From Pedobacter gandavensis (lineage in GTDB: Bacteria; Bacteroidota; Bacteroidia; Sphingobacteriales; Sphingobacteriaceae): 64,000 bases of DNA. Each line of letters begins with the position of its first letter. The first letter of the stretch is position 1. Below are positions 11,791-48,800 of the stretch, in pieces. Location: contig NZ_WNXC01000003.1 in NCBI RefSeq assembly GCF_014172405.1, positions 1-64,000 of the forward strand, in the 5' to 3' direction. Below the pieces are notes generated by a model. That model was not told where the DNA came from and did no database searches. It worked only from the letters and a program-made list of their open reading frames with translations. A program made the translations under genes and the position numbers.

Positions 11791-11821
11791 TTTTGTTTCT
11801 ACGAATAGATTCGTACATTTG
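11791..11821 (+). promoter_or_regulatory. Promoter of the blaI-blaR1-like pair
   Basis: TTTTG, 18 bases, then TACATTTG, a full TAnnTTTG match. One operator fills the spacer and a second begins three bases after the -7 box. The predicted start is about 25 bases before the ATG at 11851. Confidence 0.8.
11800..11815. promoter_or_regulatory. BlaI-type operator 1
   Basis: TACGAAT-AG-ATTCGTA, a perfect 7-2-7 dyad inside the promoter spacer and touching the -7 box. Repressor binding here would exclude RNA polymerase. Confidence 0.8.
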
Positions 11822-11823
11822 AA

Positions 11824-11839
11824 TACGAAACAATTCGTA
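11824..11839. promoter_or_regulatory. BlaI-type operator 2
   Basis: TACGAA-ACAA-TTCGTA, a 6-4-6 version of the same dyad exactly 24 bp downstream of operator 1 and over the expected transcription start. Paired sites are typical of BlaI/MecI dimers. Confidence 0.8.
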
Positions 11840-11850
11840 GACCAAAAGAT

Positions 11851-12234
11851 ATGACCCAACCCATCCCCCTTAAGCCCACGGAAAGTGAATTAGAGATCTT
11901 ACAGATATTGTGGGAAAAAGGCCAGTGTACAGTAAGAGAAGTACATGAGGTATTGGAAAAGAATAAGGAAGCTGGATACACCACTACTTTGAAGCTCATG
12001 CAGATCATGGCCGAAAAGGGATTGGTAATTCGTGATACTTCTTCAAAAACGCATATCTATCGTGCACTGGTTAATCAAGAGAAGACCGAGCAACATCTGG
12101 TCAGTAAAATGATAGACAATGTATTTAATGGTTCCGCCGCACGCTTAGTTATGCAGGCATTAGGAAATCATAGTGCCAGTAAAGACGAAATAGATTCTAT
12201 AAAAAAATACCTAGACAACCTAAGCGACAAATAA
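11851..12234 (+). CDS. BlaI/MecI/CopY family repressor
   Basis: A 127-residue winged-helix repressor. The DNA-binding domain spans residues 8-75 (PTESELEILQILWEKGQCTVREV, then GYTTTLKLMQIM as recognition region), and the last 50 residues form the helical dimerisation part, where BlaI-type proteins are cut upon induction. It is 20 bp upstream of an M56 peptidase gene, the standard repressor-sensor pair, and sits behind two dyads that it should bind. No beta-lactamase gene is nearby, so the regulated process is not necessarily beta-lactam resistance. Confidence 0.92.
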   Translation: MTQPIPLKPTESELEILQILWEKGQCTVREVHEVLEKNKEAGYTTTLKLMQIMAEKGLVIRDTSSKTHIYRALVNQEKTEQHLVSKMIDNVFNGSAARLVMQALGNHSASKDEIDSIKKYLDNLSDK

Positions 12235-12254: not shown

Positions 12255-14162
12255 ATGGAAGCAATTGTAAACAACCTGATCAAAGCAACCGGCTGGAGTA
12301 TATTCCACTCCTTATGGCAAGGCGCCATCATCTATGGCCTCTTGTTCCTAATCGTAATTGCTTTTCCAAAGTTAAGGTCTCGTCTAAAACACAACCTCGC
12401 TTACGGCGCTATGTGTCTGATCTTCGTTTGCTTTTGCATTACCTTCTTTTCCATCTTCAAGCTTCCACAGGAGAATGGCACGCAGCAGCGTGCGGAGCTG
12501 ATGATTAACGCGACCTATTATGAATACCTAAATGACATTCCACAGGACATCAGCGGCAGAGCGGAACAACTTTTCCCATATCTGGTGAGCATTTACGGTG
12601 TTGGTTTAATGTTCCAGTTATTCATTCTCCTTGCTGGTTATCAAAAGATGCAGCAGCTTAAAAATTCAGTACATACTGCTGTTCCGGATGCATGGGCTTC
12701 GATATTTCAAGAAATGATTGGAAAGTTAAAATTGAAGCAGCAAATTGGATTTCAGCTTTCTGATCAGGTTAATGTACCGCTGGTATTGGGCTACTTTAAA
12801 CCTATCGTTTTATTTCCTATTGCCTTAGCTGCACAATTGGATCTGAAACAGGTGGAAGCCATTTTAATTCATGAGCTTTCTCACATTCGCAGAAATGATT
12901 ATCTATTAAATCTTATTAAAACCGGTATAGAGACCATTTTATTTTTTAATCCATTCATCTGGCTTAGCGGAAGGTTCATCAATATAGAACGTGAACATGC
13001 TTGTGATGACCTGGTTGTACAGCTAACCGGGACGCCGGTAACCTATGCACATGCCTTGCTAAAGTTGGAAATTCTGAAAGACAAATCTGCCCCTGCCCTC
13101 TCTATGGCAGCGACAGGAAAAAATCAACATTTGTATCAACGTATAAAAAGAATTACAGACATGAAAACGAATTATATGAATGCAAAGCAGCAGTTCTTTG
13201 CCATCACATTGACCATTGTTACCGTGATTTCACTTGCTTGGGTAAAGCCTTCAAAAGCAGAAAAACTAACTACAATCAAAGCAGCTGAAACCACTGATAT
13301 GGAGATTGCTGGTGTTGGGTTCAAATTCAAAAAACAGGAGATCGAAGCGCTGAAGTTAGCCAAAAAAGTGACGGTGTTACCTATTGATACCGCAAAAAAG
13401 AAAAAGACACATCAGAAAGTAATCATTACCAGAAATAACAATGGCCATCAAACTTATTACTACCCTGACAGTCTTGGTGGAGGTGTATTTATAGCTGATA
13501 GCGCAACCAATGCCAGCCTTGCCTTTCTCTCTTCTCCAGAATGGAAACATCAACAAGAAGCCATCCGTAAAAATGCCGAAGAAATCAGAAAACGTTTTGA
13601 TTCACCAGAATGGAAAAAGCAGCAACTTGATATTCAAAAAAATGCGGAAGCGATCAGAAAGAAATTTGATTCTCCAGAGTGGAAAAGTCAGCAGCAAGCT
13701 ATCATCGCCAGTTCCGAAGCAATCAGAAAAAAATTCGACTCTCCAGAATGGAAGAAGCAACAGGAAGATATCCGGGCAAATGCAGAGATGATCAGAAAGA
13801 AATTTGATTCGCCAGAGTGGAAAAAGCAGCAGGAAGATATTCGTGCAAATGCCGAGATGATCAGAAAAAGATTCGATTCTCCAGAATGGAAGAAACAGCA
13901 GGAAGATATCCGGGCAAATTCTGAGGAGATCAGAAAGAAATTTGATTCCCCAGAGTGGAAAAAACAGCAGGAAGAGATCCGGGCAAATGCAGAAGAAATC
14001 AGAAAGAAATTTGACACTCCAGAATGGAGGAAAAAAATAGCTGATGCAAAAGCAGTTCAAAGCACTGCAGAATACAAAGAACTGCGCCGTAAGTTTGACC
14101 AGGAAGTAGAAGTTTTATTAAAGAAAAAAGAAGCTGAAGCTTCATCGAAAGCAAAGCCATAA
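12255..14162 (+). CDS. BlaR1-like M56 membrane metallopeptidase with a tandem-repeat sensor region
   Basis: A 635-residue protein. The N-terminal half has membrane helices (about 22-37, 50-68, 108-128 and 313-330) around an M56 zinc protease: HELSH (206-210) and EREHACDD (245-252). In the family this domain cleaves BlaI. The exported C-terminus lacks the penicillin-binding motifs of true BlaR1 (no STxK or KTG). Instead residues 427-587 are seven 23-residue repeats (consensus start SPEWKKQQ, end IRKKFD) and residues 588-615 a degenerate eighth, probably long amphipathic helices. The ligand or signal is therefore unknown. A terminator follows. Confidence 0.9.
   Translation: MEAIVNNLIKATGWSIFHSLWQGAIIYGLLFLIVIAFPKLRSRLKHNLAYGAMCLIFVCFCITFFSIFKLPQENGTQQRAELMINATYYEYLNDIPQDISGRAEQLFPYLVSIYGVGLMFQLFILLAGYQKMQQLKNSVHTAVPDAWASIFQEMIGKLKLKQQIGFQLSDQVNVPLVLGYFKPIVLFPIALAAQLDLKQVEAILIHELSHIRRNDYLLNLIKTGIETILFFNPFIWLSGRFINIEREHACDDLVVQLTGTPVTYAHALLKLEILKDKSAPALSMAATGKNQHLYQRIKRITDMKTNYMNAKQQFFAITLTIVTVISLAWVKPSKAEKLTTIKAAETTDMEIAGVGFKFKKQEIEALKLAKKVTVLPIDTAKKKKTHQKVIITRNNNGHQTYYYPDSLGGGVFIADSATNASLAFLSSPEWKHQQEAIRKNAEEIRKRFDSPEWKKQQLDIQKNAEAIRKKFDSPEWKSQQQAIIASSEAIRKKFDSPEWKKQQEDIRANAEMIRKKFDSPEWKKQQEDIRANAEMIRKRFDSPEWKKQQEDIRANSEEIRKKFDSPEWKKQQEEIRANAEEIRKKFDTPEWRKKIADAKAVQSTAEYKELRRKFDQEVEVLLKKKEAEASSKAKP
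13533..14015 (+). repeat. Seven tandem 69-bp in-frame coding repeats
   Basis: Each unit encodes 23 residues starting SPEW and ending FD. Units 4 to 7 are the most alike, which suggests recent expansion at that end; units 1 to 3 have diverged. A further degenerate unit starts at 14016 with TPEW. The same repeats cause long meaningless frames on the opposite strand. Confidence 0.95.
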
Positions 14163-30776: not shown

Positions 30777-32771
30777 CTAGTTTTTGATAATTTTAAACTC
30801 AGTTCTTCTGTTCAATTGATGTTCTGCGTGACTACATTTTACCCCATTCCCGCATTGATTGAGCAACATGGTTTCGCCATATCCTTTAGCACTGATACGG
30901 GAATGGTCAATACCACGATCAGTCAGGTATTTTGCCGCAGCATTTGCTCTTCTTTGGGACAACCATTGGTTGTATTGATCGGAGCCCCTACTGTCGGTAT
31001 GTGATCCAAGTTCAATCGTAATTGCCGGATTTTCTTTTAGAATGGCCAACAATTTATCCAACTCTTTTGCGGCATCGGGTCTAATGTTGGACTTATCGAA
31101 ATCATAATAGATGTTCTTCAATACATAGGTCTTGCCTGGCTCAAACTTCTCCTTATTCAGGAAAGCCTGCATCGTTAAGGTGTCAGACTTAGTCAATCCT
31201 TTAGTACTAATTGTTTTCAATTCTTCAGCATAACCCAATTTACCAAAGCTTACTTTATAGTCCTGGTCTTTAGCCAGGCCGAAGAAGAAATTACCATCCT
31301 GGGCAGTCAACTTAGTATTCAGCTGTTTTCCATCACCGTCGGTTAAAATTACGGACACATCACCTAAACGAGCCTTACTTTGCTTGTCAAATACACTACC
31401 TGACAAAGCCAATATCATCATCGGAGGCTGCTCATCAGAGAAACTATAAATATCATCATCTCCGGCACCACCTTGTCTGTTAGAAGACAAATATCCGAAT
31501 TTACCGTCCTTTGTGAACAAATAAAAATCATCACTGGTGGAATTCAGTGGGTATTTTAAATTTTCCGATTTACTCCATTGCGTTCCCGATCCCTTACTTA
31601 CATAAAGATCATAGCCACCCATACCAATCTTACCTTTAGAAGCGAAAAACAGCTCCCCATTGGGGCCTATTGTTGGAAAAGTATCTTCTTCTCCAGTATT
31701 GATTTCAGCACCACAATTTACCGGTTTCCCCCAACTGCCATCTGCTTGCTGTTGGCTAAACCAGATGTCTGACTTGCCAAATCCTCCAGGCATATCGGAA
31801 GCAAAATAAATCAGCTTTCCATCTTGAGCCACTGCGGCATGGCCTAGAGAATAGGCTTTCACATCATTGTAGGGGAAAGATTTCAAGTCCCATTTATCCC
31901 CATTTTCCCTGGCGATTAACAGCTCCAATCTACGGGTGTATAAACGATCTGCACCTTTGGTTTTATCCAGAGGAATCACCGCTGCTGGCGCCCTGGTGGC
32001 GATCGTCACATAAGCAATATCACCGGTACTATTGAACACGACTGGCCCAACATGATACTCCGCTTTGGCAGGTCTATTGGCTTCAGTAACGATTGCAAGT
32101 TCTCCTTTTAACTGGCCATCTGCAGTTGCACTAAATAATTTCAACCAGGGATTCCCATTCCATTTAGATAAATCCTTGCCTTTGGTTTCTCTGGCCAATG
32201 GACGTTCGGAGGTAAAGGCCAAGCCATCATTGCCATAGGCTGTTAATCCCCAATCCGCAGATTTGGTGTTTAAAGATTCCATATTTTTAATCTTTACAGG
32301 TCTTGGTGTTTTGATCCACAAAGCTGCACTATCACAAGAAGCTATCTTTAAAGCCAGCTCTTTTGGATGACCATCAAACTCAGCATACTTCATATAAGCT
32401 GACTTGGCAAGGTCGAACTTTTCATTTCTTTGCAAGGCTTCTGCGTAATAATAATAGCTCAAAGGACTGGCTTTGGGATTTAAAACCACTTTCGAATACC
32501 ATTTTTCTGCCTCATCGTATTCGTTCATCATTCGATAACACGCAGCCAATTGCTCTAATACTTTGAGGTCTGGATTTTTTCGTTCTGCCAATGGCAGATA
32601 CAATCTGGATGCAGGGTAGTACTCATAACGATTGAAAAACACATCTGCTTGTTGTTTCCGACTCAGTTGCTCTTGAGCCATCCCATAATTCCCTAAAAAT
32701 AGCGCCAGTATTCCGATGATCAATAACCTGGTTATGGAACGATCTGGACTTTTAAATGCTGTTCTGTTCAT
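30777..32771 (-). CDS. OmpA-family protein with TPR and PD40 beta-propeller (PorE-like)
   Basis: A 664-residue envelope protein. After a signal peptide (cleavage near residue 33) come TPR helices (about 35-150), a PD40/WD40-like propeller (about 165-440, with blades such as IYFASDMPGGFGKSDIW), a carboxypeptidase-regulatory beta-sandwich (about 450-530) and a C-terminal OmpA domain (553-664) with the peptidoglycan-binding pattern HTDSRGSDQYNQWLSQRRA and NRRTEF. This order matches PorE-type proteins linked to type IX secretion and gliding. It is the last gene of the adhesin operon, 15 bp after the SprF gene, and may tether the complex to peptidoglycan. Confidence 0.9.
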   Translation of the reverse strand: MNRTAFKSPDRSITRLLIIGILALFLGNYGMAQEQLSRKQQADVFFNRYEYYPASRLYLPLAERKNPDLKVLEQLAACYRMMNEYDEAEKWYSKVVLNPKASPLSYYYYAEALQRNEKFDLAKSAYMKYAEFDGHPKELALKIASCDSAALWIKTPRPVKIKNMESLNTKSADWGLTAYGNDGLAFTSERPLARETKGKDLSKWNGNPWLKLFSATADGQLKGELAIVTEANRPAKAEYHVGPVVFNSTGDIAYVTIATRAPAAVIPLDKTKGADRLYTRRLELLIARENGDKWDLKSFPYNDVKAYSLGHAAVAQDGKLIYFASDMPGGFGKSDIWFSQQQADGSWGKPVNCGAEINTGEEDTFPTIGPNGELFFASKGKIGMGGYDLYVSKGSGTQWSKSENLKYPLNSTSDDFYLFTKDGKFGYLSSNRQGGAGDDDIYSFSDEQPPMMILALSGSVFDKQSKARLGDVSVILTDGDGKQLNTKLTAQDGNFFFGLAKDQDYKVSFGKLGYAEELKTISTKGLTKSDTLTMQAFLNKEKFEPGKTYVLKNIYYDFDKSNIRPDAAKELDKLLAILKENPAITIELGSHTDSRGSDQYNQWLSQRRANAAAKYLTDRGIDHSRISAKGYGETMLLNQCGNGVKCSHAEHQLNRRTEFKIIKN

Positions 32772-32786
32772 ATATTTTTATGATGC

Positions 32787-33782
32787 TTAAAAGTAACGTG
32801 GACTCAATACCCTTGCCTTCTTACCTGGGAAACTCATGCTCAATGAAAATTCATGGGAGCCACTTTGGTAGCTGGAAAGCTTGCTTGTTGTGTAGTCATA
32901 GGAATAACCCAACCGGAAGCGATTACTCATTTGAAGCTCTACAATTCCGGCAATCGCATCACTATGACTCAATCCATTCTGCAAATTTTTCTTATCCCAT
33001 AACGCAACTCCTGTACGATAGGAGGCGCCCAACCAGACCACCTTACTGATCAACAAATAAGCGTTTAGATCTAAATTTGTAGGGCCTTTAAAATCCTCTT
33101 TCAGCATAAAGCTGGGCTTCAGATCCAACGATTCCGTCAACGGAATCATAACTCCACCCGTTACATAAAGGTGGCGAACCTGTCGAAGCACTTTATAATC
33201 TCCTTCTGTAGCGATGTCATTTCCTCTTAAGCCGGACAATAAATCCAGCACGGAAGCACCGATATAAAATTTCGGAGTATAAAAATAAACACCAACCCGC
33301 ACATCTGGTCTCAGTTTACTCTCATTTCCTAATGGGATTACGCCATCTCCTGGATCCGTAGAAATAAACTTCGAACCATCCAGGTTATACTGCGTCGCTC
33401 CTGCACCGATACCAAAACTCAAGCGCTTGGTATCTTCTGCATCCAATTGTAAACGATAAGCATAATTCACATAAAAGGCCGAAGTATTTTGGGGGCCCAA
33501 ACGATCTGTACTCGCAATAAATCCAAGCCCCATCTTCTTCCCTTCCTGATCTGTTAATCCATCAAAAGAGGCGGTACCAGTACGCGGAGCGCCATCAATA
33601 CCTACCCATTGGGACCGGAAGCTAAAATTTGCTGTCCATTCTTCTTTATAACCGGCATAAGCAGGATTTACAGCCAAACCATTAAAAACATACTGACTGA
33701 ATTGGATTGTCTGCTGTGCGTATGCACTGCTCATCCCTAGTACGAGCAGTGATACTAAACCATATTTCTTTAAATCTCTCAT
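32787..33782 (-). CDS. PorP/SprF family outer-membrane protein
   Basis: A 331-residue outer-membrane beta-barrel with a signal peptide (cleavage after AYAQ) and the family motif NPAYAG (residues 38-43), ending with the typical SHEFSLSMSF strand. In Flavobacterium SprF is needed for secretion of SprB, and such proteins are encoded next to adhesins with type-B C-terminal domains. Here it starts 21 bp after such an adhesin, so it is most likely the dedicated export or anchoring partner of that protein. Confidence 0.93.
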   Translation of the reverse strand: MRDLKKYGLVSLLVLGMSSAYAQQTIQFSQYVFNGLAVNPAYAGYKEEWTANFSFRSQWVGIDGAPRTGTASFDGLTDQEGKKMGLGFIASTDRLGPQNTSAFYVNYAYRLQLDAEDTKRLSFGIGAGATQYNLDGSKFISTDPGDGVIPLGNESKLRPDVRVGVYFYTPKFYIGASVLDLLSGLRGNDIATEGDYKVLRQVRHLYVTGGVMIPLTESLDLKPSFMLKEDFKGPTNLDLNAYLLISKVVWLGASYRTGVALWDKKNLQNGLSHSDAIAGIVELQMSNRFRLGYSYDYTTSKLSSYQSGSHEFSLSMSFPGKKARVLSPRYF

Positions 33783-33803: not shown

Positions 33804-36800
33804 CTACCTTTTAATAAATAACCAACCTTTGAACGTTGTTGTCGGGCCCGATTTCTCTCTTCTCAAAATCAGATAATAATAGGTTCCCTCGTTCAACTGA
33901 CTACCATCCCAATCATTGTTATAATTGTCTGATCGGTAAACCTCATTACCCCATCTGTTAAAGATCGTCACCTGAGTTCCCGGATAATTCTCCAGTCCTT
34001 TGATTTTGAAAGTATCATTACTTCCATCACCATTTGGTGTAATGACATTTGGAATAATAAAATCAGCATTTTCTACGGTAGTAGTTACGGTATTACTACT
34101 TACTTCCGCAGTACCTGTAGTAGACAAGGCCCTTGCTGTATTCTCCAGTTTTCCGGTAAAGGATTTTGATACCGTACCGGTAATGGTTAACACAATTTTA
34201 TTTGCCGTACCTGCTGGAAGGTCGGAAATCAGATTTATGCGGCTGCCGGTACCTGTACCACCAGAAATAATTTTGGCCGTACCCAATGCTTCAGCAGTCC
34301 ATTTTACATTTTGAATATCTGAAGATACCAAATCGGTAACTGTTAAATTATCTGCATTACTTAGGGAAGGATTGCTTACCTCTATCACATATGTAATTGC
34401 ATCACCGGATTTCAATTGTGACGGACCTGTTTTGTTGACAGTCACCGTTGGTATCTTGCTCACTACTGTCGCTACCGGAGGCGTCACCACTGCTGGAATA
34501 CCCGGCTCTGCTGGTTTCGCCGTAGCAATATTGCTCAATGTTCCGGCGAATCCCCCATTTACGGTACCAGTTACGGTGATGGTTATTTTATTTGCTGCAC
34601 CTGATGCAATATCTCCGGTTACCGCCAAGACGTTACCTGTTCCGGTTGCACCGGTAGTTACTGCAGCCGTTCCAGCCGTATTGGTTGTCCATTTTACATT
34701 GGTAATTTCCGCAGGAACGTTATCGGTAATCAGAGTTCCTTTCGCATTACTCAATCCTGTATTTCCAACTTCAATCACATAGGTAATATTCGAACCTGCA
34801 CTAATGGTAGCCGGCCCCGTTTTCGTAATGGTTATCGATGGTTTAGCAACGGTCACCGTGGTTACCGGAGGAGTTACCACAGGCAGATTACCTGGCTCTG
34901 TTGGCGTCACCGTGGCTGTGTTACTCAATGTGCTAAAATTAGCAGCGTCAACTTTTCCGCTCAGGTTTATCGTGATCCCATCTGCAGTACCTGCAGGAAT
35001 CGTTGCCGTTACGCTAAGGTTATTTCCTGTCCCGGTTGTTCCATTGCTAATCGTTGCTGCTCCGTTGGCAACAGCAGTCCAGGTTACCCCCGATAACTGT
35101 GCAGGAACTAAATCGCTGATCACTGCATTTTGTGCAGTACCCGGACCATGATTAACCACGTTGATCTGGTAAGTCATCATTCCACCTGCAGTCACTGTTG
35201 AAGCTCCTGTTTTAGTGATTCTCAAGGCCGACAAACTAGTTACCGTAGTGCTCACCTGTGCATTGATCACTGCTTTACCAGGATCTTCAGGGGTAAGGCT
35301 TGCTTTATTAATTAAAGTTCCAGCATAGGTAGGACTTACCTTACCTATAATATTCACGAGGATACTACCATTTGCAGGAACATTAGCGGTCAGCACAAGG
35401 GTATTCACGTTACCCGTAGCACCTGCACTAATTGTTGCTCCGCCAGTCAGTGTGGTGGTCCAGGAAACATTCGTTACCGCAGCATCCAATACATCCGAAA
35501 CTTTAACACCTATTGCATCTGATGGGCCGTCATTTTTAATGGTCAAAGTATAGCTGATGGCTTCCCCTGAATTTAATGTCCCAGGACCACTTTTCGCTAG
35601 ACTTAAGCTTGCATTATTTACAATTGCTGTAGTTACAGTATTAGAATTCACCACTGGATTACCCGGTTCTGAAGGTTTAATTGTTGCAGTATTGCTGATA
35701 TTTCCTGCGGTGGTATTTCCAGGAACCAAACCAGTAATATTTACTGTAATGATCCCATTTACAGCTGGAAGGTCTGCAATCATCAACAGCGTATTCCCTT
35801 GTCCAGTTGCACCAGATTTGATCAAGGCCGCACCAGAAACATTAGTTGTCCAGTGTATGTTAGTCAATTGGGCAGGAATTAGATCGGTAATCTCCGCATT
35901 CACTGCATTACCCGGACCATTGTTACTAATGGTCAACGTATAATTCACCGTTTTCCCAGCCTCAATACTATTCGGCCCAGATTTCACAATTTTCAGTGCC
36001 GATTTATTCAACACATTCGTGGTTACGGCTGAAGAAGTCACTGCCGGATTACCCGCTTCTGATGGAGTTACCACAGCTGAATTCAACAATACGCCACTAA
36101 AACCTGCATCGATAATCCCATTGATGGTAATCGTTACCTCATTGTTCACACCTGCAGGAATATCTGCATTTACACCTACTGTGTTTCCTGTTCCAGCAGC
36201 TCCAGAGTTAATCAGGGCATTGCCGGTGGCCAGCGCTGTCCAGTTGACTGCTTTTACGTTAGCTGGCACCATATCCATAATTTGTGCCTGACTTGCGTTA
36301 CTCAATCCATTGTTACGTACTTTGATCGTGTAAGTGATTGCAGAGCCGGAAACACCATCCTGAGGACCAGCCTTACTAATTGTTAGTCCGGAAACCGAGC
36401 TAATCACGGTTTTCACTTCACTGGTATTGTTGGACAGGTTAAAATCAGAGATACTTACTGGTAAGGTCACTGTCGCAATGTTACTGATATTTCCGGATGG
36501 GACACTTGCTTTCACGGTACCATTCAGGGTAATTAACACATAATTACCTGCACCTATGGGCACATCTGCATTCAGCAATACCGAGTTATTAGTACCACTT
36601 GATGCACCATTAATTACTGCGATACCATTTGCCTGAGCAGTCCAGTTGATCCCGCCAATTTCCAATGGAATCTGGTCTCTGATGATCAATCCAGCCACAT
36701 CTCTTGGCCCCTGATTCGTTACTTTAATCGTGTAAGTAATCGCTGATCCGGAGATCACTGCCTGCGGACCAGTTTTTTCTATTTTAACATCGGTAGACTG

Positions 36801-39800
36801 ATTTACTGCCGTTACCACAGAGCTTTTACGCTCTCCATTGGCAGTTACCGTCACCGTATTGGTAAACATCGCATTTGCCGTACTTTTCACGATACCATTT
36901 ACTGTAATCACTACTGCAGTATTTGGATCGGCATCTGCTGGGATATCTGCCGAAGTCGCAATCGCGTTGGTTGTACCAGATACAGCTCCTTTCAAGATAG
37001 CGCCACCTGAAACCGCAGCGGTCCAACTGCTTACCGCCACATCATTTGGTACGGGATCGGCAATCATTGCATTGACAATATCTCCTGCTCCACCGTTTCT
37101 AATCACAATCGCATATGAAATCGGATCACCGATATTTACTGTTGCCGGACCGCTTTTCGATACTTTCAATACCGGGTCATTGTTGATGATGGTTGGCACA
37201 GTACTGGTATTTGAGCTTAGTTCCGGATCGGTAATTAAACTGCCCACAGGGAAATAAGCGGTAGCCGTATTGGTGAATACCGTTTTATCCAGATTACTGG
37301 CTTTTACTTTTCCAAGAATCTTGATTTCGATTGATCCTGTTCCTGAAGGAATATTTCCGGTCAGATTAATATCTCCGGTTCCAGTTGCCTGACTTAAGGT
37401 AGCTCCACCTTGCAGTGTACTTGTCCAAGTTGATCCTGCTTCCAGATTTGGAGGAATCACGTCTTGAATCAATACGCCAATGGCATCACTCGGTCCATCG
37501 TTTACGATACGCAAGTTATAACTCATCATTTCTCCAACTGCAATATCGGCGGGGCCTGATTTACTGATTCTAACATTTGCCACTCTGCTGATTGCAGTAC
37601 TCACCGTACTACTTGCCGGACTTGGATCTGTTACCCCTGCACCTGGCATAGCCGTTGCTGTATTAATCAGAATGGTTCCTGTGTAATCAGCATTTATTTT
37701 TCCATTCAGCAGGATTTGTACATTACCATTGGCCGCTGGAATCGCAGCGGTAACATTCACATTGCCAGTTCCAGTTGCAGGGCCGCTGATTACTGCACCA
37801 TTTTGTCCTATGGCCGTCCAGTTTAACACTGTAAAACCAGCTGGTACATTGTCTACAATATTTGCCGCAGTAGTATTACTTGGGCCCACATTTGTCACAT
37901 TAATCGTATAGGTAATCTCAGAACCAGCAACCACTGCTGATGGCCCTGTTTTCAGAATCTGAAGATCCGCAGTTCTCAGCAGTCCTGTAGTCACTTCTTC
38001 CGAAGTTATCGGAGGATTTCCTGGTTCAGCTGGCGTAGCAGTAAAGCTATTTTTCAGGAATGGGCCAGTAAAACCAGGGTCTACTACCCCTTTAACCGAT
38101 ACAGTAACGGAGTTTCCAGAACCTGCAGCGATGTTGACGCTTGGATTAACCGTACTTCCCGAACCTGTACCATTTGAAACTACACTTGCAGTACCGGTAA
38201 CACTGGTTGTCCAGCTTACATTATTAATTCCCGCAGGAACCACATCCTTAAGTGCCAGATTTACGGCATCCCCAGGACCATCGTTGTAAACTTGTAAGGT
38301 ATAATTGATGCTTTCACCTGCCGCGATAGTCGCTACTGCAGATTTAACTGCTCTAATATTTACCGTATGGTCTACGGTAGTAGTCACCGTATTTGAATTT
38401 ACCGAAGGATTTCCTGGTTCAGACGGTGTGGCGATTGCCACGTTAGTCAAGGTTCCGACAGCGGCTGAAGCAGGTACTTTTCCGGTGATGGTGACTAAAA
38501 TTTGATTGGCAGCACCAGCAGGAATATCTCCTGTCACTTGTACCTGATTTCCAGTACCCGTTGCGCCTGTTGTCACAGCAGCAGTTCCTTGCGTAGCTAC
38601 AGACCAGGTAACTCCGGTTAATCCCGCAGGCACCGCATCTGCAATTTGCAAACTCCTTGCATCCGAAGGACCATTATTTCCGGCTAACAGCGTATAAGTC
38701 ACTGATTGTCCTGCTGAAATTTGTGATGGGCCGGTTTTGATCAGGCTAACTGATGATATGGAGGTCATGTTAGTCGTCACAGTTGAACTTGCAGGAACTG
38801 TTCCAGGTTCTGATGGGGTAATTGTTGCTTTATTTACCAGCGCTGCTGTTGCAGATGGGCTAACCGTTCCTTTAATGGTTACCAATATTGTATTACCCGC
38901 ACCTGCAGGAACATTGGCATTTATAGCTAAATTATTGGTATTTCCAGTTGCGCCGCTTACCACACTTGCTGCACCATTGGCTACTGCCTGCCAACTGACC
39001 CCGGTAATATTTGCAGGGATCGCATCCGTGATGGTCGCATTGTCAGCATTCGCTTTCCCTGTATTACTGATACTTAAAGTATAAATGATCTCCTGCCCTG
39101 CAGCAATAGTACCAGGGCCATTTTTCGCAATGGCCAACACTGGTGTTTTACTTATGATCGAAGTAGTCGATGCATTGACCGGAACGGTTCCTGGCTCTGA
39201 TGGTGTTGCTACAGCAGTATTAGTTAGGTTACCCTGATAAGCAGGATCTACTGTTCCTTTTACTGTGATGGTGATCAGATTACTGGCACCAGTCGGAATA
39301 TCACCATTTAAAATCAGCGCATTTCCGGTTCCAGAACCACCTGTGTTAATCACTGCGGCTCCGGAAGCTACACTTGTCCAGCTCACATTGCTCAGCAATA
39401 CTGGCACTGCATCCGTAATGGACAATGCTGTTGCATTACTCAAGCCTGTGTTTCCGGCTATAATGGTATAGACCATTTCTGATCCGGAGATCGTTGCCGC
39501 AGGACCAGTTTTTGTCAGGGTAATTCCTGGCTTCGCATCCACTACTGTTTCCACTGGTGGTGTGATTACATTAGGGAAATTAATTAATGGCACTGCAATA
39601 GAGGCCTCATTATTCAGCGTTCCAGAAAAAGCAGGATCCACTGTTCCAGTTAAGGTAATCGTGATTTTATTATTGGCATTACCTGCAGGGATATTGGCCG
39701 TCAGTGCTATAAAATTACCTGAACCTGTACCACCACTCAGGATTGATGCTGTTCCTCCAGAAACGGAAGTCCAGCTCACATTACGCAATTGGGTAGGAAC

Positions 39801-42800
39801 ATCATCAACGATGGTTACTCCAGAAGCGTTACTCAATCCATTATTAACCGCAGTGATCAGGTAAGTAACCGTTCCACCTGCCGTTGCCGTAGGCTGTCCG
39901 GTTTTGGTGATAACCACGATTGGTTTTTGATCAATATTAGTCTCCACAGGGTTACTATTTACCGGAGTTATTCCCGGTTCTGATGGTGTAGCAATGGCCA
40001 TATTGACCACTTTCCCCTGGGCAGCAGGATTGATTGTTCCGGTAATACTGATGCTGATTTTATTATTGGCACCAGCAGGAATATTTGCATTTAACACCAC
40101 ATTTCCGGTTCCGGAACTTGCCCCGTTAATGGTACTTATTCCTGCTGTACTGGCTGTCCAGCTCAGTCCTGTTATTGCCGGATCGATCTGATCGGTAATA
40201 TTCAGATTTTTAGCATTACTCAGACCGGTATTGATCACCTCTACCACATAAGTTATCGTACCACCTGCAGTGGCTGATGCCGGGCCAGTTTTATTCACTA
40301 CAATCACTGGAACCTGATTTACCGTGGTAACCACTGCTGGAGTTACCACTGCTGGAATTCCTGGCTCAGCAGGGCTAGCTGTTGCAGTGTTACTTAAAGT
40401 ACCTGCATAGGCCGGGTCTACCGTACCTGTGATGGTAATGGTGATTTTATTCGCTGCACCTGCTGGAATATTTCCGTTAAGCACCAGGGCATTGCCAGTT
40501 CCCTGGCCGCCGCTATTGATACTACCGCCAGCAGAAGTACTGCTGGTCCAGCTTACATTTTTAATATTTGGATCTATGCTATCTGAGATGACCAGGTTAG
40601 TTGCATCACTCAAACCGGTATTATTTGCTTCTATGTTGTAACTAATCTGACCACCGGCAGTCACTGTTGCCGAACCTGTTTTACTTAAATTGATTTCTGG
40701 TTGTTTCGTTACAATGGTTTCTACCGGCGGAGTCACTACTGCTGGATTACCCGGATCAGCAGGGGTCACAGTGGCGATATTGCTGAGTGTACCCGCATAA
40801 GATGCCAGGATGGTGCCTGTAACCTCAATCACAACTTCGTTTTGCTGACCTGCAGGAATATTCGCTTTCACACGCAAGCTGTTGCCTGTTCCCTGTGCGC
40901 CTTCCGTAACTACTGCGGCTCCTAAGGTGGTGGCCGTCCAGCTTACAGATTGCAATTGCACTGGAATTGCATCCGTAATCAAGGCATTCAGGGCAGTACT
41001 CGGCCCGGTATTCGTTACCTTAATCTGGTAAGTCATCACCTGACCGGCAATGGCATTTGCAGTTGCGCTTTTGCTAATTTGCAGGTTTGTTAATTTACTT
41101 ACAACTGTTACGGCCTCTGCATTCACAGGCTGTTCACCTGGCTCTTGCGGACTCAATAAAGCAGTATTCGTTAAAGTACCGGCAAATAAAGGATCTACTG
41201 TTCCTTTTACATTCAGCAGGATGGTTCCATTTAATGGAATATCTGCTGTCAGGTCGATATTATTTCCAGATCCTGTGGCACCACTAGTGATCAATGTGCC
41301 ACCTGTAACGGTACTCGTCCAGGAAACATTTTTGATGTCTGCAGGCACAGCGTCCGTTAACCTGGTAGCCGTGGAATTTGAAGGACCTGTATTTTTAATG
41401 GCTAGTGTATAAGTGATGTTTTCTCCGGCATTTAAGGTTGGAGGGCCTGATTTTGTTAAGCTCAGTGTTACATCTTTCACAATTCCCGTGGTCACTTCAT
41501 TAGAAATAACCGGCGGATTGTTAACATCTGGAACAGCTGGGGCTACTGAGGCCGTATTACTAATACTTGACAACTGGCTGTTTGCCGGAACATCCGCCAG
41601 GATCGTCACCACCAAATTACCAGAACCTGCCAAGAAATTAGCGGTCAAAGAAACAGGATTAACATTCCCGGTTGCTCCGGCTGTTACTACTGCACCAGTA
41701 GTGGTAGCTGTAGTCCAGCGTACATTCGTTAAACCTGCAGGAATCTGATCACTAACGATCAGCCCTACCGCATTACTTGGACCTGCATTGCTTAGCAATA
41801 ATTGATATTGAACCGTTGTTCCCGCAGCCACACTAGATGGTCCTGTTTTTACAATACTCACAGCCGATTTATTGATGACCGTAGTGGTTACATTTTGTGA
41901 CGTAACCGGAGGATTCCCTGCTTCCGCTGGCGTAGCTACTGCATTGTTTAACAAAGTGCCACTAAAGCCTGGGTCAATTGTACCTTTCACTACAATTGCC
42001 ACCTCATTACCTGCACCTGCCGGAATATTTGCGGTTAGCGAAACCAAATTATTTGCGCCTGCAGTACCTGTTGCACCAGCTGTAATATTGGCTGTTCCAA
42101 TCTGGCTGGAGGTCCAACTTACATTTTTAACATTTGCTGGAACAGCATCAGTAATTACGGTACCAACCGCGTTACTTGGTCCGGCATTCGCCACAATAAT
42201 AGTATAAGTAATTTCCGATCCGGAGATTGCATCTGCTGGTCCCATTTTACGTACCGACAATCCGGATTTTGAGGCCACTACTGTTGAGGCGGTGCTGGTA
42301 TTGTTGGTTAGATTAAAGTCTGACACCCCAGCAGGAAGCGTTACATTTGCTATGTTATTAATCGTAGCCACATTTGTAGCGGGATCAACAGTCCCCTGAA
42401 CATTGATGAGGATATAATTTGCTGGATCTGCATCAATCGAAGCAGTAGTTTGAATATTGTTTGTACTTCCACTACTGGCACCAGTAATTGCAGCCGTTCC
42501 GAAGGCTGTAGCCGACCAGGTTACGTTTTGGATAACCGCTGGTATTACATCTGAAATACCAAGGCCAGCCACATTGACTGGACCGTCATTACCTACCTTT
42601 ATCTGGTAACTAATTGGGGAACCGGCAAGGATACTCTGAGGACCATTTTTCTCGATGTAAATATCGGTAGACTCATTTAATGCGGTTACAACAGCACTCT
42701 CTTTGATGCCATTTGCTTCCACTGAAACCGTATTGGTAAAGCTCGAGGCCGCCGTCGTTTTCACAATACCCTGAATGGTCACTGTGATCTTAGAAGGGGG

Positions 42801-45800
42801 ATCACCTCCTACAGTAGAAGGGATATCACCATAAGTGATCACTGCGTTACCTGTACCAGAAGCCGTTCCGTTTTGTAATCCCTCAATAGAGGCTCCATTT
42901 GAGGCCACTGCGGTCCAGCTGCTCACGGCAACTGAGTTAGGCACGACATCAGTAATCGAAGCATCAGTGATATTACTCAATCCATTATTTTTAACTTCTA
43001 TGGTATAAGTAATCGGATCGCCGATATTGATTTTGCTTGGTCCGCTTTTAGACACTGCTAAATTAGTTTCTACCAAAATAGCGGTAGTCACTGAGCTTGT
43101 ATTAGATCCCAGATCAGGATCTATAATCGAGCTTCCGTTAGGGAAAAGTGCAGTAGCCGTATTCACAAAGGGCTCTGTAGCACCCGGACTCACTATTCCC
43201 TTGATGGTCACATCTACGACACCTGTTTTAGAAGGAATATCCGCGTTAAAGGTTATATTTCCGGTACCATTCAACGTATTGTTTACTGATCCACCATTTA
43301 ACGCTGCTCCCGTTGATGCTACAGCAGTCCAACTTACATTAGTTACTGCTGCATTTGCAGCAAACAAATCACGAACCTGGACAGCTTGTGCAAAACTAGG
43401 TCCATCATTTACAATTCTTAGGGTATAAGTAATATCCTCACCGGCAGTAATATTTGCCGGGCCAGATTTTACAATTCTCACATTGGCAGATCGGCTGATC
43501 GCTGTAACTACCGTACTTGTTGCCGGTGTCGGATCGCTAACACCTGCTTCCGGAGTTGCAGTGGCAATATTTGTCAATATACTTCCTGCATAAGCCGGGT
43601 CAATGGTTCCGCTTACATTAATGGTTACGGTACCTGAATTCGCAGGGATTGCTGCTAGCACATTAATGCTGTTGGTATTCCCTGAAACCGGGCTGCTAAT
43701 CACCGCACCATTCTGTGCAGTAGCAATCCAGGTTACCCCCGTAATTGCTGCAGGAATCGGATCTACAATACTTGCATTGGCAGTATTTGATGGCCCTGCA
43801 TTATTCACGGTAATGGTATAATTGATCGTTCTACCTGCAACTGCGGTTGCCGGGCCTGTTTTTGAAATCTGCAGATCCGCGGTTTTATTAATCAGTGTAG
43901 TCGTCGTATTAGAGTTTACGGTCGGATTTCCTGGTTCTAAAGGATCCACGCTAAAGGTATTTACCAATTGTGTTCCAGTAAAATCAGGATCTACTTTACC
44001 GGTAACCGTCACCAAAATCACATTGGCAATTCCTGCTGGAATATTTGCGCGAAGACTCAAAGAGTTTCCTGTACCAGTTCCACCAGAAACTATCGATGCA
44101 GCGCCATTCGCGTTTGTGGTCCAATTGACATTTGTGATACCTGCAGGTAACTGATCTGAGATCAGCAAATTCTGCGCATCACTAGGGCCTGTATTTTTCA
44201 CCTCTAAAGTATAAGTGATGTTCTCTCCTGCCGAAAGTACTGCTGTGGCAGATTTAACCGCGGCGATGGTCACTTGTTTATTAATCGTAGTGGTTATCGT
44301 ATTGGAATTTACCGGAGGTATACCATCTTCTGTCGGACTGGCCTTCGCCACATTGGCGAAAGTGGTAGCTGTTGTGTTAGCTGGCACGAGGCCGGTTATG
44401 GTCACTAGGATTCTGTTTCCAGTACCCGCAGCAATATTTCCAATCACAGTTACACTGCTACCTGTGCCAGTGGCGCCAGTCGTTACTGCTGCTGTACCTT
44501 CCGATACTGCAGTCCAGCTGACATTGGTTAAAGGAGTTGGAATTGCGTCAGTAATATTAAGGTTTGTTGCATCCGAGGGGCCAGTGTTACCGGCAATCAG
44601 CATATAGGTAACCATTTGTCCTGCAGCGATCTGCGAAGGACCAGATTTAGACAAAGTAATCCCTGGAACAGATTTTAAGGTCGTGGTTACCGTAGAAGTA
44701 GATGGATTAGCACCTGCTTCAGCTGGTGTTACAGTTGCGGTATTTACTAAACTACCAGTTGCTGCCGAACTCACATTCCCTTGAATATTTACACGGATTA
44801 TATTGGCTAATCCTGCCGGGATGTTTGCATTAAAACTCAAGGCATTTGTACTTCCTGAAGCCGTGCCAATAATTGTCGCTGTTCCTCCTGCATCGGCTGT
44901 TGCCGTCCAGCTAACATTCGTAATTCCTGCTGGAATTGCATCTGTTATCGTGGCATTTGTTGCATCTGAAGTTCCTCCATTACCAATCGTTAACGTATAA
45001 TTGATTTGCTGACCTGCAGAAATGGTTGCAGGTCCTGTTTTTTGAATGGCCAGTACCGGTATTCTACTGATGGTACTGGTACTGGTTGCCGACTTGGCTA
45101 CCGTTCCAGGCTCTGCTGGCGTAGCGGTTGCCGTATTGCTTAATGTCCCACTGAATGATGAGGCAACTATACCTTTTACCGTTAGGGTAATCGTATTGCC
45201 TGCACCTGCCGGGAGATCGGCATTAAGACTGATTGCGTTTCCACTTCCGGTGACAGTCCCATTAATTAATGCGGTACCTCCGGTTACTGCTGACCAGCTG
45301 ACACCAGCAATGGTTGCCGGTACCTGATCTGCAATGACCAATGCTTTGGCATCCGAAGTACTAAAGTTATTTACGGTAATGGTATAAGTAATATTTTGCC
45401 CGGCTACCAATGCTGCTGGCCCGGTTTTGGTAATACTCAATTCTGGTGTGCGCGTCGCGGTAGTCGTTACTGAAGAGCTGACTGGTGTTGCGGCATTTTC
45501 TGTTGGTGTAGCGGTTGCAGTATTTACGATACTACCATTAAAGGATGGATCAACTGTTCCTCTAACGGTCAGTGTAATTTTATTGGCAGCGCCGGCAGGA
45601 ATATCACCAGTCACAGAAAGGTTATTTCCAATGCCTGTAGCACCGAGGTCAATCACTGCTGCCCCGCCAATTGCAGTCGTCCAGGTTACATTTTTAATGC
45701 TTGAAGGCACTATATCTGCAATCACTAAATCAACGGCGTCTGAAACTCCGGAATTCGCTACAGTAATCGTATAGGTAATTTGGTTACCAGCAGTAATTGT

Positions 45801-48800
45801 AGCCGGGCCAGTTTTCAAGATACTTAAAGCGGGTTGTCTAACGGCCTGACCTGTACTGGTAGCCGATTTTACCAGGGTTCCAGGTTCTGCAGGTGTAGCG
45901 GTTGCGGTATTCGCCAAGCTTCCAGAAAAACCAGCACTCAAAGTTCCGCTAATATTGATTACAATTTTATTGGCTGCTCCTGCCGGAAGGTTTCCGGTTA
46001 CACTAATTGCATTGCTAGTTCCGTTTCCTGTACCAATTACCGAGGCTGTACCTTGCGTACTGGTACTCCAAACGACATTGCTCAGCTCCGCAGGCACTGC
46101 GTCTGTGATCACTAAAGCTTTGGCATCAGCAGTACTGGTATTGGTTACGGTCACAACATAGGTTACTTGTTGTCCGGCAACTAAAGTCGCAGCTCCGATT
46201 TTCGTAATCGTCAATATTGGAGTACGACTCACCTGAGTGGTTACAGTTGAGCTGGAAGCCACACCACCTGTTTCTGATGGCGTAGCAATAGCGGTATTGC
46301 TTAGGGTACCGCTAAACGATGGATCAACGATACCATTGATCGTTACCAAAATTGCATTAGCAGCCCCTGTTGGAATATTTCCTTTCAGACTGATGGAGTT
46401 GTTGCCTCCCCCATCATTTGGGCCGATGATTGTTGCAGTGCCTTGCACTGTTGCATTCCAGGTCACTGTATTTATATTAGCCGGTATTACATCCGTAATA
46501 CTTGCATTCAGGGCATCACTCAGCCCATTATTTGTAATTTTCAAAGTATAAGTAATCGGATTTCCTGCCTGTGCGTTTGTTGGTCCGTTTTTCAACATTA
46601 CTAACCCTGATTTACTGGAAACTGTAGTCAGTACGGTATTAGAATTTACCGGAGAAACGGCTTCCACAGGCGTTGCGGTTGCCGTATTGCTAAAGCTGCC
46701 TGTGGCAGAAGGCAATACGGTTCCGGTAACATTAATAACTACCGTATTGGTTAATCCTGCAGGAATTGTTGCAGCAAAACTGATATTATTTCCGGTATTG
46801 CTGGCATTTCCTGTAAAGGTAGCCGAACCAGTTTTACTCAGCGTCCAGTTGACATTATTAATCTGCGCAGGAATCAGGTCTTTAATGGCTGTACCAATGG
46901 CATCGCTGGTACTTGTATTTTTAATAATGATTTTATAGGCAATTGCATCTCCCGCAATCACATTTGCCGGGCCATCTTTCTCTATAACCAGTACTGGTTT
47001 TCTATCCACCGGACTCGTTACTGTAGATGTTGCCCCGTCTGGATCTGGAATGATTGGAGAAGTTACCGTTGCTGTGTTCACCAGGTTACCAGAGTAATTG
47101 GCTGCCACAGTACCATTTACATCAACGGTAATGCTATTGCCAGCACCAAAGGCGATGTTACCGGTTACATTTACAGCATTACCAGCAGAAGTATTCTGGG
47201 TAACTGCTGCTGTGCCCATGGCATTGGCACTAATTGCAAGGACGGAAATATCAGCAGGTACATTGTCCAGCAGTTTTAATCCAGTAGCATCACTTGGTCC
47301 ATTGTTGGTGGCCACAATGCGATAAACGATCGGTTGTCCGGAAACAAATGGTCCTGGAGTTACTACTGATTTCGTTACTTTAATATCTGCGAGTCTGGTA
47401 TAATTAATCAGGACTTCATCAGAAGAAGGATTACATGTTCCATTAGATACTGTCCAGATTAAAGTTGCAGAGGTTCCTGGGGCAATCGTAACCAAGGTAT
47501 TTGCTGCGGTTGGTGTGGCAATTGTTGCGGTACTTCCTGCTTTAACCGTCCATACTCCTGTTCCTGAAGTTGGACCGTTGGCATTCATGGTGAATGCACC
47601 AGAATTGTATTGGGTAATATCAGGACCTGCATTTGCAGTTGTTGGATTGTCAAAATTAGTCAGTGTTACATAGCTCACTGAAGAAGGACAAGCTCCAGCA
47701 CTAATGGTCCAGGACAAAGTCGCTGTTTTCCCTTTTCCGATATTTACCGTACTATTTGGGAGTGTTACATCATCAATCACCGCTTGTCCGGAAACTACAG
47801 CCCATACACCTGTTCCCAAAACCGGTACATTTCCGTTCAGCCGGAATAAATCCACCGCACATTGTTGTTGGTTAGCACCTGCGTTAGAAGGCGTAGGGGC
47901 AAGATCAATATAGATAATTACCGGAACGCTGACAGACGTACAGGAACCAGAGCTCACCGTCCTACGGAATAGCGTCATTTGAGACACAAGTCCGGGAGTT
48001 AAATTAACGGTATTACCACCTACGACTGCCCAAGTAATACCAGAATCTGTACTTTTTTCCCATTTGTAAATAAAAGTGCCATTACCACCAGAAGGTGTTG
48101 AACCCGTAATCACACCAGGATCCGTTGGCCCACAAAAGACAGATACTACTGGTACAGTCAGCGCGTTTCCAGAAATTGCCGGCGTCACCGTAACCGCAAT
48201 AGCCGAAGTATTTACCGGTCCACATCCTGAGGCTGCAGAAATCACCGTTCTGCGATAATAAGTAGTTTGAGTAATTGGGCTGCTTGCGCTATAACTAATT
48301 TGCGTAGCACCTGCAATGTCAGCAAAACCAGTAGTTGCACTCGTGGTACTACTTTGCCATTGGTAAGCATAAATCTGATCCCCACCGGTAGCAGGAGTCA
48401 ATTGATTGAGTGTGGCAGGTGTACCTGTCGAACAGAAAGCTTGCGCGTTACCAATCGTACCCGCAGTCAGTACCGGATTTACCGTAAATTTAATCGGATT
48501 GCTGGCATTTGCCACCGTACAAGCTCCTGAGGTAGCCAAACGGCGATACCAGGTTGATACGGTAATATCTACCGGATCATAATTTGCTGCGGTTGCTGCA
48601 ACTATATTGGTATAGGTAATATTGTCTGTACTGGATTGCCATTGATAAGCTGGAGTACCATTACCACCAAGCGCTGTTGAACCGGTCATCAGACCAGGAT
48701 CACCTGTACCACAAAGTGCCAGGTTAGCAGGAGGAACAATCGTATTCGAAGTAATAACTGGTTGTACAGTAATTGTCACCACATTACTGGTATTTAGACA

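Follow-up and report, generated by a model that had tools for sequence, protein, structure and literature searches.

We analysed positions 1 to 64,000 (forward strand) of contig NZ_WNXC01000003.1 of Pedobacter gandavensis (assembly GCF_014172405.1), hereafter the window; nearest named relatives place this genome in the Pedobacter group of the Sphingobacteriaceae. The subject is a gene pair in which an M56 (BlaR1-type) protease/receptor, encoded by an open reading frame (ORF) of 635 amino acids at 12255-14162 on the forward strand, follows a BlaI repressor. BlaR1-type receptors are known as beta-lactam sensors. This one carries an array of single-helix units in place of a penicillin-binding sensor, and we consider it probable, if well short of certain, that the pair is an autoregulated BlaI-BlaR1-type switch acting as an envelope-stress receptor. 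The features of the locus are:

11791-11795: upstream TTTTG accompanying the -7-like element (sequence).
11800-11815, no strand assigned: operator O1, TACGAATAGATTCGTA, an exact palindrome TACGAAN4TTCGTA and one of three exact sites in the genome.
11814-11821, forward: TACATTTG, like the Bacteroidota -7 element TAnnTTTG; a putative promoter element, judged by sequence.
11824-11839, no strand assigned: operator O2, TACGAAACAATTCGTA, 24 bases from O1 (sequence, conservation).
11851-12234, forward: BlaI/MecI-type repressor, 127 amino acids, 20 bases upstream of the receptor gene (PF03965, E = 1.8 × 10−28; alignment to MecI, 1okr, over residues 11-122).
12154-12159, forward: predicted BlaI cut between Gln102 and Ala103, equivalent to Asn101-Phe102 of S. 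aureus BlaI (MecI alignment; invariant in 81 of 81 loci).
12255-14162, forward: M56 protease/receptor (PF05569; fold match to S. aureus BlaR1, 8exs).
12870-12884, forward: HELSH zinc motif, residues 206-210, with Glu247 as third ligand (alignment to BlaR1, Glu242).
13107-13112, forward: predicted self-cut between Ala285 and Ala286, equivalent to Ser283-Phe284 of BlaR1 (BlaR1 alignment; invariant in 81 of 81 loci).
13386-13475, forward: conserved stretch after the fourth transmembrane helix (TM4), DTAKKKK...PDSL, residues 378-407 (90-row alignment; low model confidence).
13533-14015, forward: seven tandem 23-residue units, residues 427-587 (tandem-repeat finding, model, unit alignment).
14016-14087, forward: degenerate eighth unit, TPEWRKKIADAKAVQSTAEYKELR (TPEW...), residues 588-611, running into the C-terminal helix (29-43% DNA identity to units 1-7).
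14067-14150, forward: C-terminal helix as modelled, residues 605-632, with E606, Y607 and L610 conserved in at least 90% of the 90-row alignment.

The membrane protease half is intact, as the original prediction, made from the sequence alone, had claimed. PF05569 (Peptidase family M56) matches residues 37-299 with E = 3.7 × 10−36 and 125.3 bits, against a cut-off of 31, and the motif EREHACDD occupies residues 245-252. Residues H206, E207, H210, E247, D251 and R296 align with BlaR1 H201, E202, H205, E242, D246 and R294, which are described in PMC9834060. None of the six varies among the 81 loci compared, made up of the window and 80 named loci, which are the best 80 of 283 found and therefore biased towards close kin. 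The first four are also invariant across a 90-row alignment. An M56 match at E = 10−10 was found in 95 of 99 genomes of the genus (G015 and G057 gave only a weaker match of the paralog kind; G and L numbers are our handles for genomes and loci), and the alignment was drawn from the 95 matching genomes, with G015 and G057 (paralog kind), G039, G046 and G096 left out. Comparison of the predicted model to S. aureus BlaR1 (8exs) gave Z = 18.3 with a root-mean-square deviation (rmsd) of 4.2 over 244 aligned residues, a comparison that barely tests the receptor outside residues 3-301 and 565-631, and BlaR1 chains took Foldseek ranks 1-6. As modelled, the receptor thus has the transmembrane and protease fold of BlaR1. 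The NCBIfam equivalog for BlaR1/MecR1 (NF000326) scored 110.2 bits over residues 73-325 only, below its cut-off of 400. A single-sequence search of the PDB matched BlaR1, and a profile search of the PDB with the 90-row alignment gave no match at E = 0.001.

The C-terminal penicillin-binding sensor that marks BlaR1/MecR1, with its SxxK, YxN/SxN and KTG motifs, is missing from the receptor as judged by its sequence. The domain scan matched no penicillin-binding family, and the motif scan after TM4 found a sole SxxK, at residue 631, and no SxN/YxN or K(T/S)G, in agreement with the earlier claim that the exported part lacks STxK/KTG motifs. The conclusion that the receptor is not a penicillin sensor is supported by these scans. 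Five hydrophobic regions were found, one of which (residues 174-192) falls inside the protease domain. The ratios of K+R to D+E in loop 36-47 (4/0), in loop 68-105 (3/6) and before TM4 (4/1) fit a BlaR1-like topology with the C-terminus outside. By the modelled fold and these loop charges, the C-terminus is probably exported, although the charge of one further stretch, considered below, qualifies this part of the original prediction.

The neighbouring gene encodes a BlaI repressor: the Penicillinase_R domain (PF03965) is present with 99.6 bits against a cut-off of 22.6, and the copper repressor model CopY/TcrY (TIGR02698) scored 56.5 bits, below its cut-off of 121.95. The pairing of protease and repressor, likewise claimed at the outset, extends beyond the window: each of the 80 named loci has a blaI upstream, on the strand of its M56 gene. 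According to PMC9834060, BlaR1 of S. aureus cleaves itself between Ser283 and Phe284 and BlaI between Asn101 and Phe102, and the positions equivalent by alignment predict the two cut sites listed above, both with Ala in the P1′ position. In 36 further pairs (L211, without a blaI match, excluded), a P1′ Ala in BlaI was accompanied by a P1′ Ala in the M56 protein in 17 of 20 pairs, and a P1′ Leu or Val in BlaI by a bulky M56 residue (Ile, Val, Leu or Phe) in 16 of 16; since two related clades supply most of these pairs, the counts are interdependent and suggestive only. The joint change of both putative cut residues between paralogous pairs suggests that the receptor protease cuts its neighbouring BlaI. 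The window genome holds a second blaI-M56 pair (L346, G000:C18:107100; L358) without PEW units, with P1′ Leu in BlaI and P1′ Ile in the M56 protein; an operator copy with one mismatch lies 18 bases upstream of its blaI.

The palindrome TACGAAN4TTCGTA occurs exactly three times in the 5.59 Mb genome, and two of these sites precede blaI. Two exact palindromes, 24 or 25 bases apart, lie before blaI in 81 of 81 loci, and TAnnTTTG, which we take to be the -7 consensus, stands between them in 72 of 81. Among other genera of the family, both sites were found with at most one mismatch at 18 of 19 blaI genes. A double operator with up to three mismatches was found in 121 of 145 genomes of the genus, and the reversed-pattern control columns held 1 match. 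The recurrence of paired operators at blaI across loci, genera and genomes is strong evidence, at the level of sequence, that the blaI-M56 genes are autoregulated through the predicted operator pair.

The array itself was described correctly in the original prediction as seven 23-residue SPEW repeats and one degenerate copy. Tandem-repeat finding placed it at 13532-14028, with period 69, 7.2 copies, 77% matches and a score of 493. Units 4-7 are 80-90% identical to each other in DNA, and units 1-3 are 68-77% identical to each other and to units 4-7. A very recent expansion was rejected, since units 4-7 differ by 10-20%; the earlier inference of a changing copy number from near-identical units holds as to the number, which varies between species, but not as to identity. 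The structure prediction that had been proposed for the repeat region gave one helix per unit: AlphaFold models each 23-residue unit as a 21-residue helix and a 2-residue break, with predicted local distance difference test (pLDDT) values of 82-86 for blocks of residues 431-580. An array with 20-residue units was modelled as 18-residue helices with 2-residue breaks, at low confidence (mean pLDDT 60.9). In structure comparisons, the array aligned with long helical proteins at rmsd values of 7.5 to 75 Å among the rows listed. Matches of the array to designed TIM barrels in phmmer were read as composition.

Comparison of repeat number among relatives, which had also been proposed, shows that the number varies. 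Counts obtained with a hidden Markov model (HMM) ranged from 0 to 12 across the 81 loci; the arrays of the two loci with no units (L133 and L167) may have decayed or diverged. In the nearest relative examined (L097, Pedobacter sp. PLR), whose first 335 residues are 93% identical, 6 units were counted where the window has 8. Among locus pairs at least 95% identical over these residues, the number differed in 0 of 12, and among pairs 90-95% identical in 13 of 48, the window-L097 pair included. A tree of 78 loci (a quick tree with long branches present) called for at least 34 changes of unit number and 4 changes of length type, 3 of the 4 being forced by well-supported branches. A second copy on one contig (L104) and the contig-cut loci L142 and L155 were omitted from the pair and tree counts. 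In all 27 proteins tested, units resembled others of their own protein more than those of distant proteins, a pattern consistent with array turnover.

Unit length varies in steps. With a strict unit-start pattern (drifted units excluded, L104 left out), spacings below 35 residues in 80 loci including the window were 20 (127 times), 23 (104), 27 (3) and 16 (1), and in 20 loci of other genera of the family they were 23 (34 times), 27 (7), 20 (1), 16 (1) and 31 (1). No other spacing below 35 residues occurred in either set. Such steps of 3-4 residues amount to about one helical turn. Larger spacings were multiples of 20, 23 or 27 in 35 of 38 and 10 of 14 cases, as could be expected where an intermediate unit start has drifted. 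An earlier, permissive start pattern gave many within-unit spacings (9, 13, 14, 6 and others) besides 20 and 23. Unit length can change within a single array: by HMM, that of L141 (Pedobacter sp. SYP-B3415) combines nine units of 20 residues with three of 23.

In congeners, rare additional operators stand before genes other than blaI; the figures that follow come from the matches listed, which do not cover every extra site. At 10 of 14 non-blaI places the site lay within 200 bases upstream of a start, compared to 2 of 30 reversed-pattern places, and when overlap with the start was also counted the numbers were 12 of 14 and 5 of 30. Genes of family PF00144 (by Pfam) followed at 5 of the 14 places, and 0 of 30 control sites were entered as adjoining such a gene; control locus L309 has a PF00144-type gene within its 3 kb, its site-adjoining ORF being a different, unscanned one. 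Fisher tests of such contrasts count related loci as independent and are no more than indicative. At least three congeners carry a second double operator, before PF00144 hydrolases (L251 and L252, in G059 and G050) and an outer-membrane-type gene (L275, in G254); in G055 an extra operator matched on one strand only. Altogether, the operator preceded PF00144-type genes at no fewer than 10 loci in ten genomes, six being one ortholog, with Pfam run on five. A search at E = 10−60 detected this ortholog in 5 of 99 congeners; four of these copies carry an exact operator, and the fifth is only 52% identical. Among the best 30 orthologs of an outer-membrane protein (the query counted), 8 had an exact operator 91-145 bases upstream, four of them at loci not previously examined, compared to 0 of 30 for the reversed pattern with up to two mismatches. 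Both queries had been chosen as operator-bearing, and the pattern search had already turned up the four PF00144 copies with an exact operator. DUF6624-type genes stand at the operator in at least four genomes (by reading; Pfam run on one). Taken together, the operators of congeners appear, by sequence, to mark envelope-type genes as control targets. The operator-bearing PF00144 ortholog L296/L356 (G055:C149) has two in-frame stops, and this target may be decaying.

We therefore favour, as probable, an autoregulated switch in which the array of single-helix units replaces the penicillin-binding sensor and receives envelope stress. The gene pair, the operators, the catalytic residues, the joint change of cut residues, the quantised units and the envelope-gene operators of relatives are read from sequence; binding, cleavage, topology, mechanical coupling and the nature of the signal are what we infer. 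At rest, BlaI dimers would occupy the two palindromes on either side of the -7 box in the blaI promoter; in some species they would also sit at envelope-gene promoters (PF00144 serine hydrolases, outer-membrane proteins, DUF6624). If the envelope were disturbed, the periplasmic array might change its position or its partner, and the movement outside the membrane would be relayed to the metalloprotease inside, as proposed for BlaR1. The protease would cut itself at Ala285-Ala286 and BlaI at Gln102-Ala103, and the promoters would be released. In BlaR1, movement of the sensor towards the membrane pushes loop EL1 and helix alpha-3, and these extend to the protease (PMC9834060); a helical rod fixed to TM4 and moved by the wall, the outer membrane or a partner could push in a similar way. 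That the signal is wall or outer-membrane stress is a guess.

Several observations weigh against this reading, besides the relatedness of the cut-site pairs and the choice of target queries noted above. Three of the 20 pairs with P1′ Ala in BlaI do not fit, their M56 residue being Ile (L214), Leu (L216) or Ser (L218). The stretch after TM4 is also positive (K+R 4 vs. D+E 2), which disfavours export, and the model does not settle how the helices pack (predicted template modelling score, pTM, 0.49). Single extra operators numbered 30 vs. 73 for the reversed pattern in 60 genomes (hand count, among the matches listed), so an excess of extra sites was rejected as evidence and the case for targets rests on site position and recurring gene families. 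Of the 14 places, two were scored deep in a predicted ORF: one is the 5′ end of a second blaI gene, and the other falls in the first codons of a gene for an outer-membrane protein. In one outer-membrane group, five sites lie inside the first codons (L233, L256, L290, L294 and L298), the site of L301 is mid-ORF, and L288, L291 and L302 have other neighbours. In 22 of the 30 outer-membrane protein orthologs there was no operator within two mismatches, and exact sites in the window genome occur only at the blaI promoter and at an aspartyl-protease-like gene (PF13650).

The same PF00144 sites also bear on the claim, made at the outset, that the receptor senses something other than penicillin. It stands in that the receptor is not a penicillin sensor, but a signal unrelated to beta-lactams or wall damage is unsupported, given that congeners have the blaI operator before PF00144 genes, which leaves room for wall damage or an indirect action of beta-lactams. 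Beta-lactam defence may have been kept, with the receptor sensing wall damage or muropeptides caused by the drug instead of the drug and inducing hydrolases of the beta-lactamase family, a minority possibility to which we give real weight. The exact operators before PF00144-type genes, with the full pair in G059 and G050, speak for it. These targets are rare, however; in the window genome, no gene adjoining a site of at most one mismatch looks like PF00144 (by reading, unscanned), and beta-lactam activity of the targets is only putative. PF00144 also includes peptidases and esterases, and the other targets, outer-membrane proteins and DUF6624, are not resistance genes. There is a precedent for a wall-derived signal in Bacillus licheniformis, where a peptidoglycan dipeptide also acts on BlaI (PMC3305447).

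Equally, the array could serve as a passive arm whose length can be adjusted, with the actual sensing done by the conserved flanks (DTTKKK...MPDSL and the end helix EYKELKKKFD) through contact with a partner; we regard this as unlikely, though far from negligible. While unit number changes from 0 to 12, and at least 34 times over the tree, the flanks are conserved in the 90-row alignment: besides the end-helix residues listed above, D378 is invariant and T379, K381, K382, G397, D405 and S406 are conserved in at least 90%, in a stretch (residues 378-407) whose pLDDT is mostly below 50. Some family members with long arrays (L202, L207 and L209) nevertheless lack the end helix, and a mere spacer would need neither the unit length nor the hydrophobic pattern, both of which are strictly maintained. 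A broader version of the stress-receptor reading, which we put forward tentatively and think doubtful, is a general envelope gauge, in which a helix rod, put in place of the drug-binding sensor and tuned in reach by evolutionary gain or loss of units and by whole helical turns within a unit, would sense periplasmic distance, tension or packing and act through the same push on membrane helices as in BlaR1.

The palindromes away from blaI might instead be sites of a different regulator, for example a paralogous BlaI, which would put the envelope targets outside the control of the window pair. The near-operator of the second blaI in the window genome (L346) would fit this, as would the paralogous pair of G057 and G283, whose blaI carries an exact site at its 5′ end, but we think it improbable given that PF00144 genes (G059 and G050) and an outer-membrane-type gene (G254) are preceded by paired operators with the same spacing and a -7 box. 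Quite improbable, finally, is that the units lie on the membrane face to read lipid packing, in the manner of apolipoprotein repeats, which are lipid-binding tandem amphipathic helices broken by proline: the units are amphipathic (mean hydrophobic moment 0.40 for 23-residue and 0.45 for 20-residue units vs. 0.21 shuffled), with Trp and Phe on one helix face and Pro at each break, but a one-sided hydrophobic face suits helix packing equally well and the net charge per unit is only about +0.7.

The blaI-M56 locus is widespread in the genus and reaches other genera. Of 20 loci chosen from the better matches in other genera of the family, 14 have at least two PEW units, and a peculiarity of this one genome was therefore rejected. 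An array query at E = 10−15 matched 4 of 295 genomes of the class, all in the window's own family (Sphingobacteriaceae). The query is too blunt to show absence outside the family, since further family members, the congeners G063 and G132 among them, escaped it as well, and G063 does carry an array, of 20-residue units (L041). A downstream gene on the same strand, which we take to be recN-like, was found in 72 of the 80 named loci (more than 1 kb further on in nine), and a presumably DUF4835-like gene lies upstream in 76 of 80. In L202, L207 and L209 (G193, G206 and G111), two or more neighbouring M56-type ORFs lie near one blaI, where the first has PEW units and one after it a charged helical tail of another kind. 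Many draft assemblies (G035:C4, G022:C16, G080:C2 and others) have a contig end about 4-6 kb from the receptor gene, which hints at a long repeat, possibly an rRNA operon, beside the locus. Elsewhere in the window, an ORF of 5771 residues (33804-51119, reverse strand) contains many similar DUF11-like repeats and a type IX secretion-like end and is followed by a PorP/SprF-like ORF (32787-33782) and an OmpA-like ORF (30777-32771), all named by reading.

In the open-access literature we recognised nothing on the repeat sensor, its operator or a BlaI regulon in Pedobacter; PMC12578637 and PMC7254926 do not concern BlaI. M56-BlaI pairs are already known, as is a sensor-less BlaR1 homologue in M. 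tuberculosis, the trigger of which is stated as an open point in PMC9834060. A genus and part of its family with a modular sensor, a defined operator and few candidate targets make the question of triggering testable in Pedobacter, and the joint change of cut residues offers a sequence handle for matching M56 proteases to repressors and predicts exact cut sites.

Among known systems, the M. tuberculosis homologue shares a similar zinc protease domain without an equivalent sensor domain, but it belongs to another phylum, and no repeat array is described in the passages of PMC9834060 consulted. BlaI_0696 and BlaI_1845 of Clostridium thermocellum have small autoregulated regulons in which four protomers find ordered sites, comparable to the two palindromes here; their motifs (GTCTAT and GACTAT) and their targets are different (PMC8457756). 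The second M56-BlaI pairs of the genus (17 loci: L358-L373 and L305) have the same families side by side but PEW units in 0 of 17 and another C-terminal part; a P1′ Leu or Val in BlaI accompanies a bulky M56 residue in 16 of them, and Ala accompanies Ala in one (L361). A close parallel in organisation is staphylococcal BlaR1/MecR1 with BlaI/MecI, which shares the M56 protease with a C-terminal extension, the adjacent BlaI, the catalytic residues and cut-site positions by alignment, and operator palindromes at its own promoter, as in S. aureus. The window pair differs from it in its Gram-negative host, in a P1′ Ala instead of Phe at both predicted cut sites, and in a receptor that carries a helical-repeat array and no penicillin-binding sensor.

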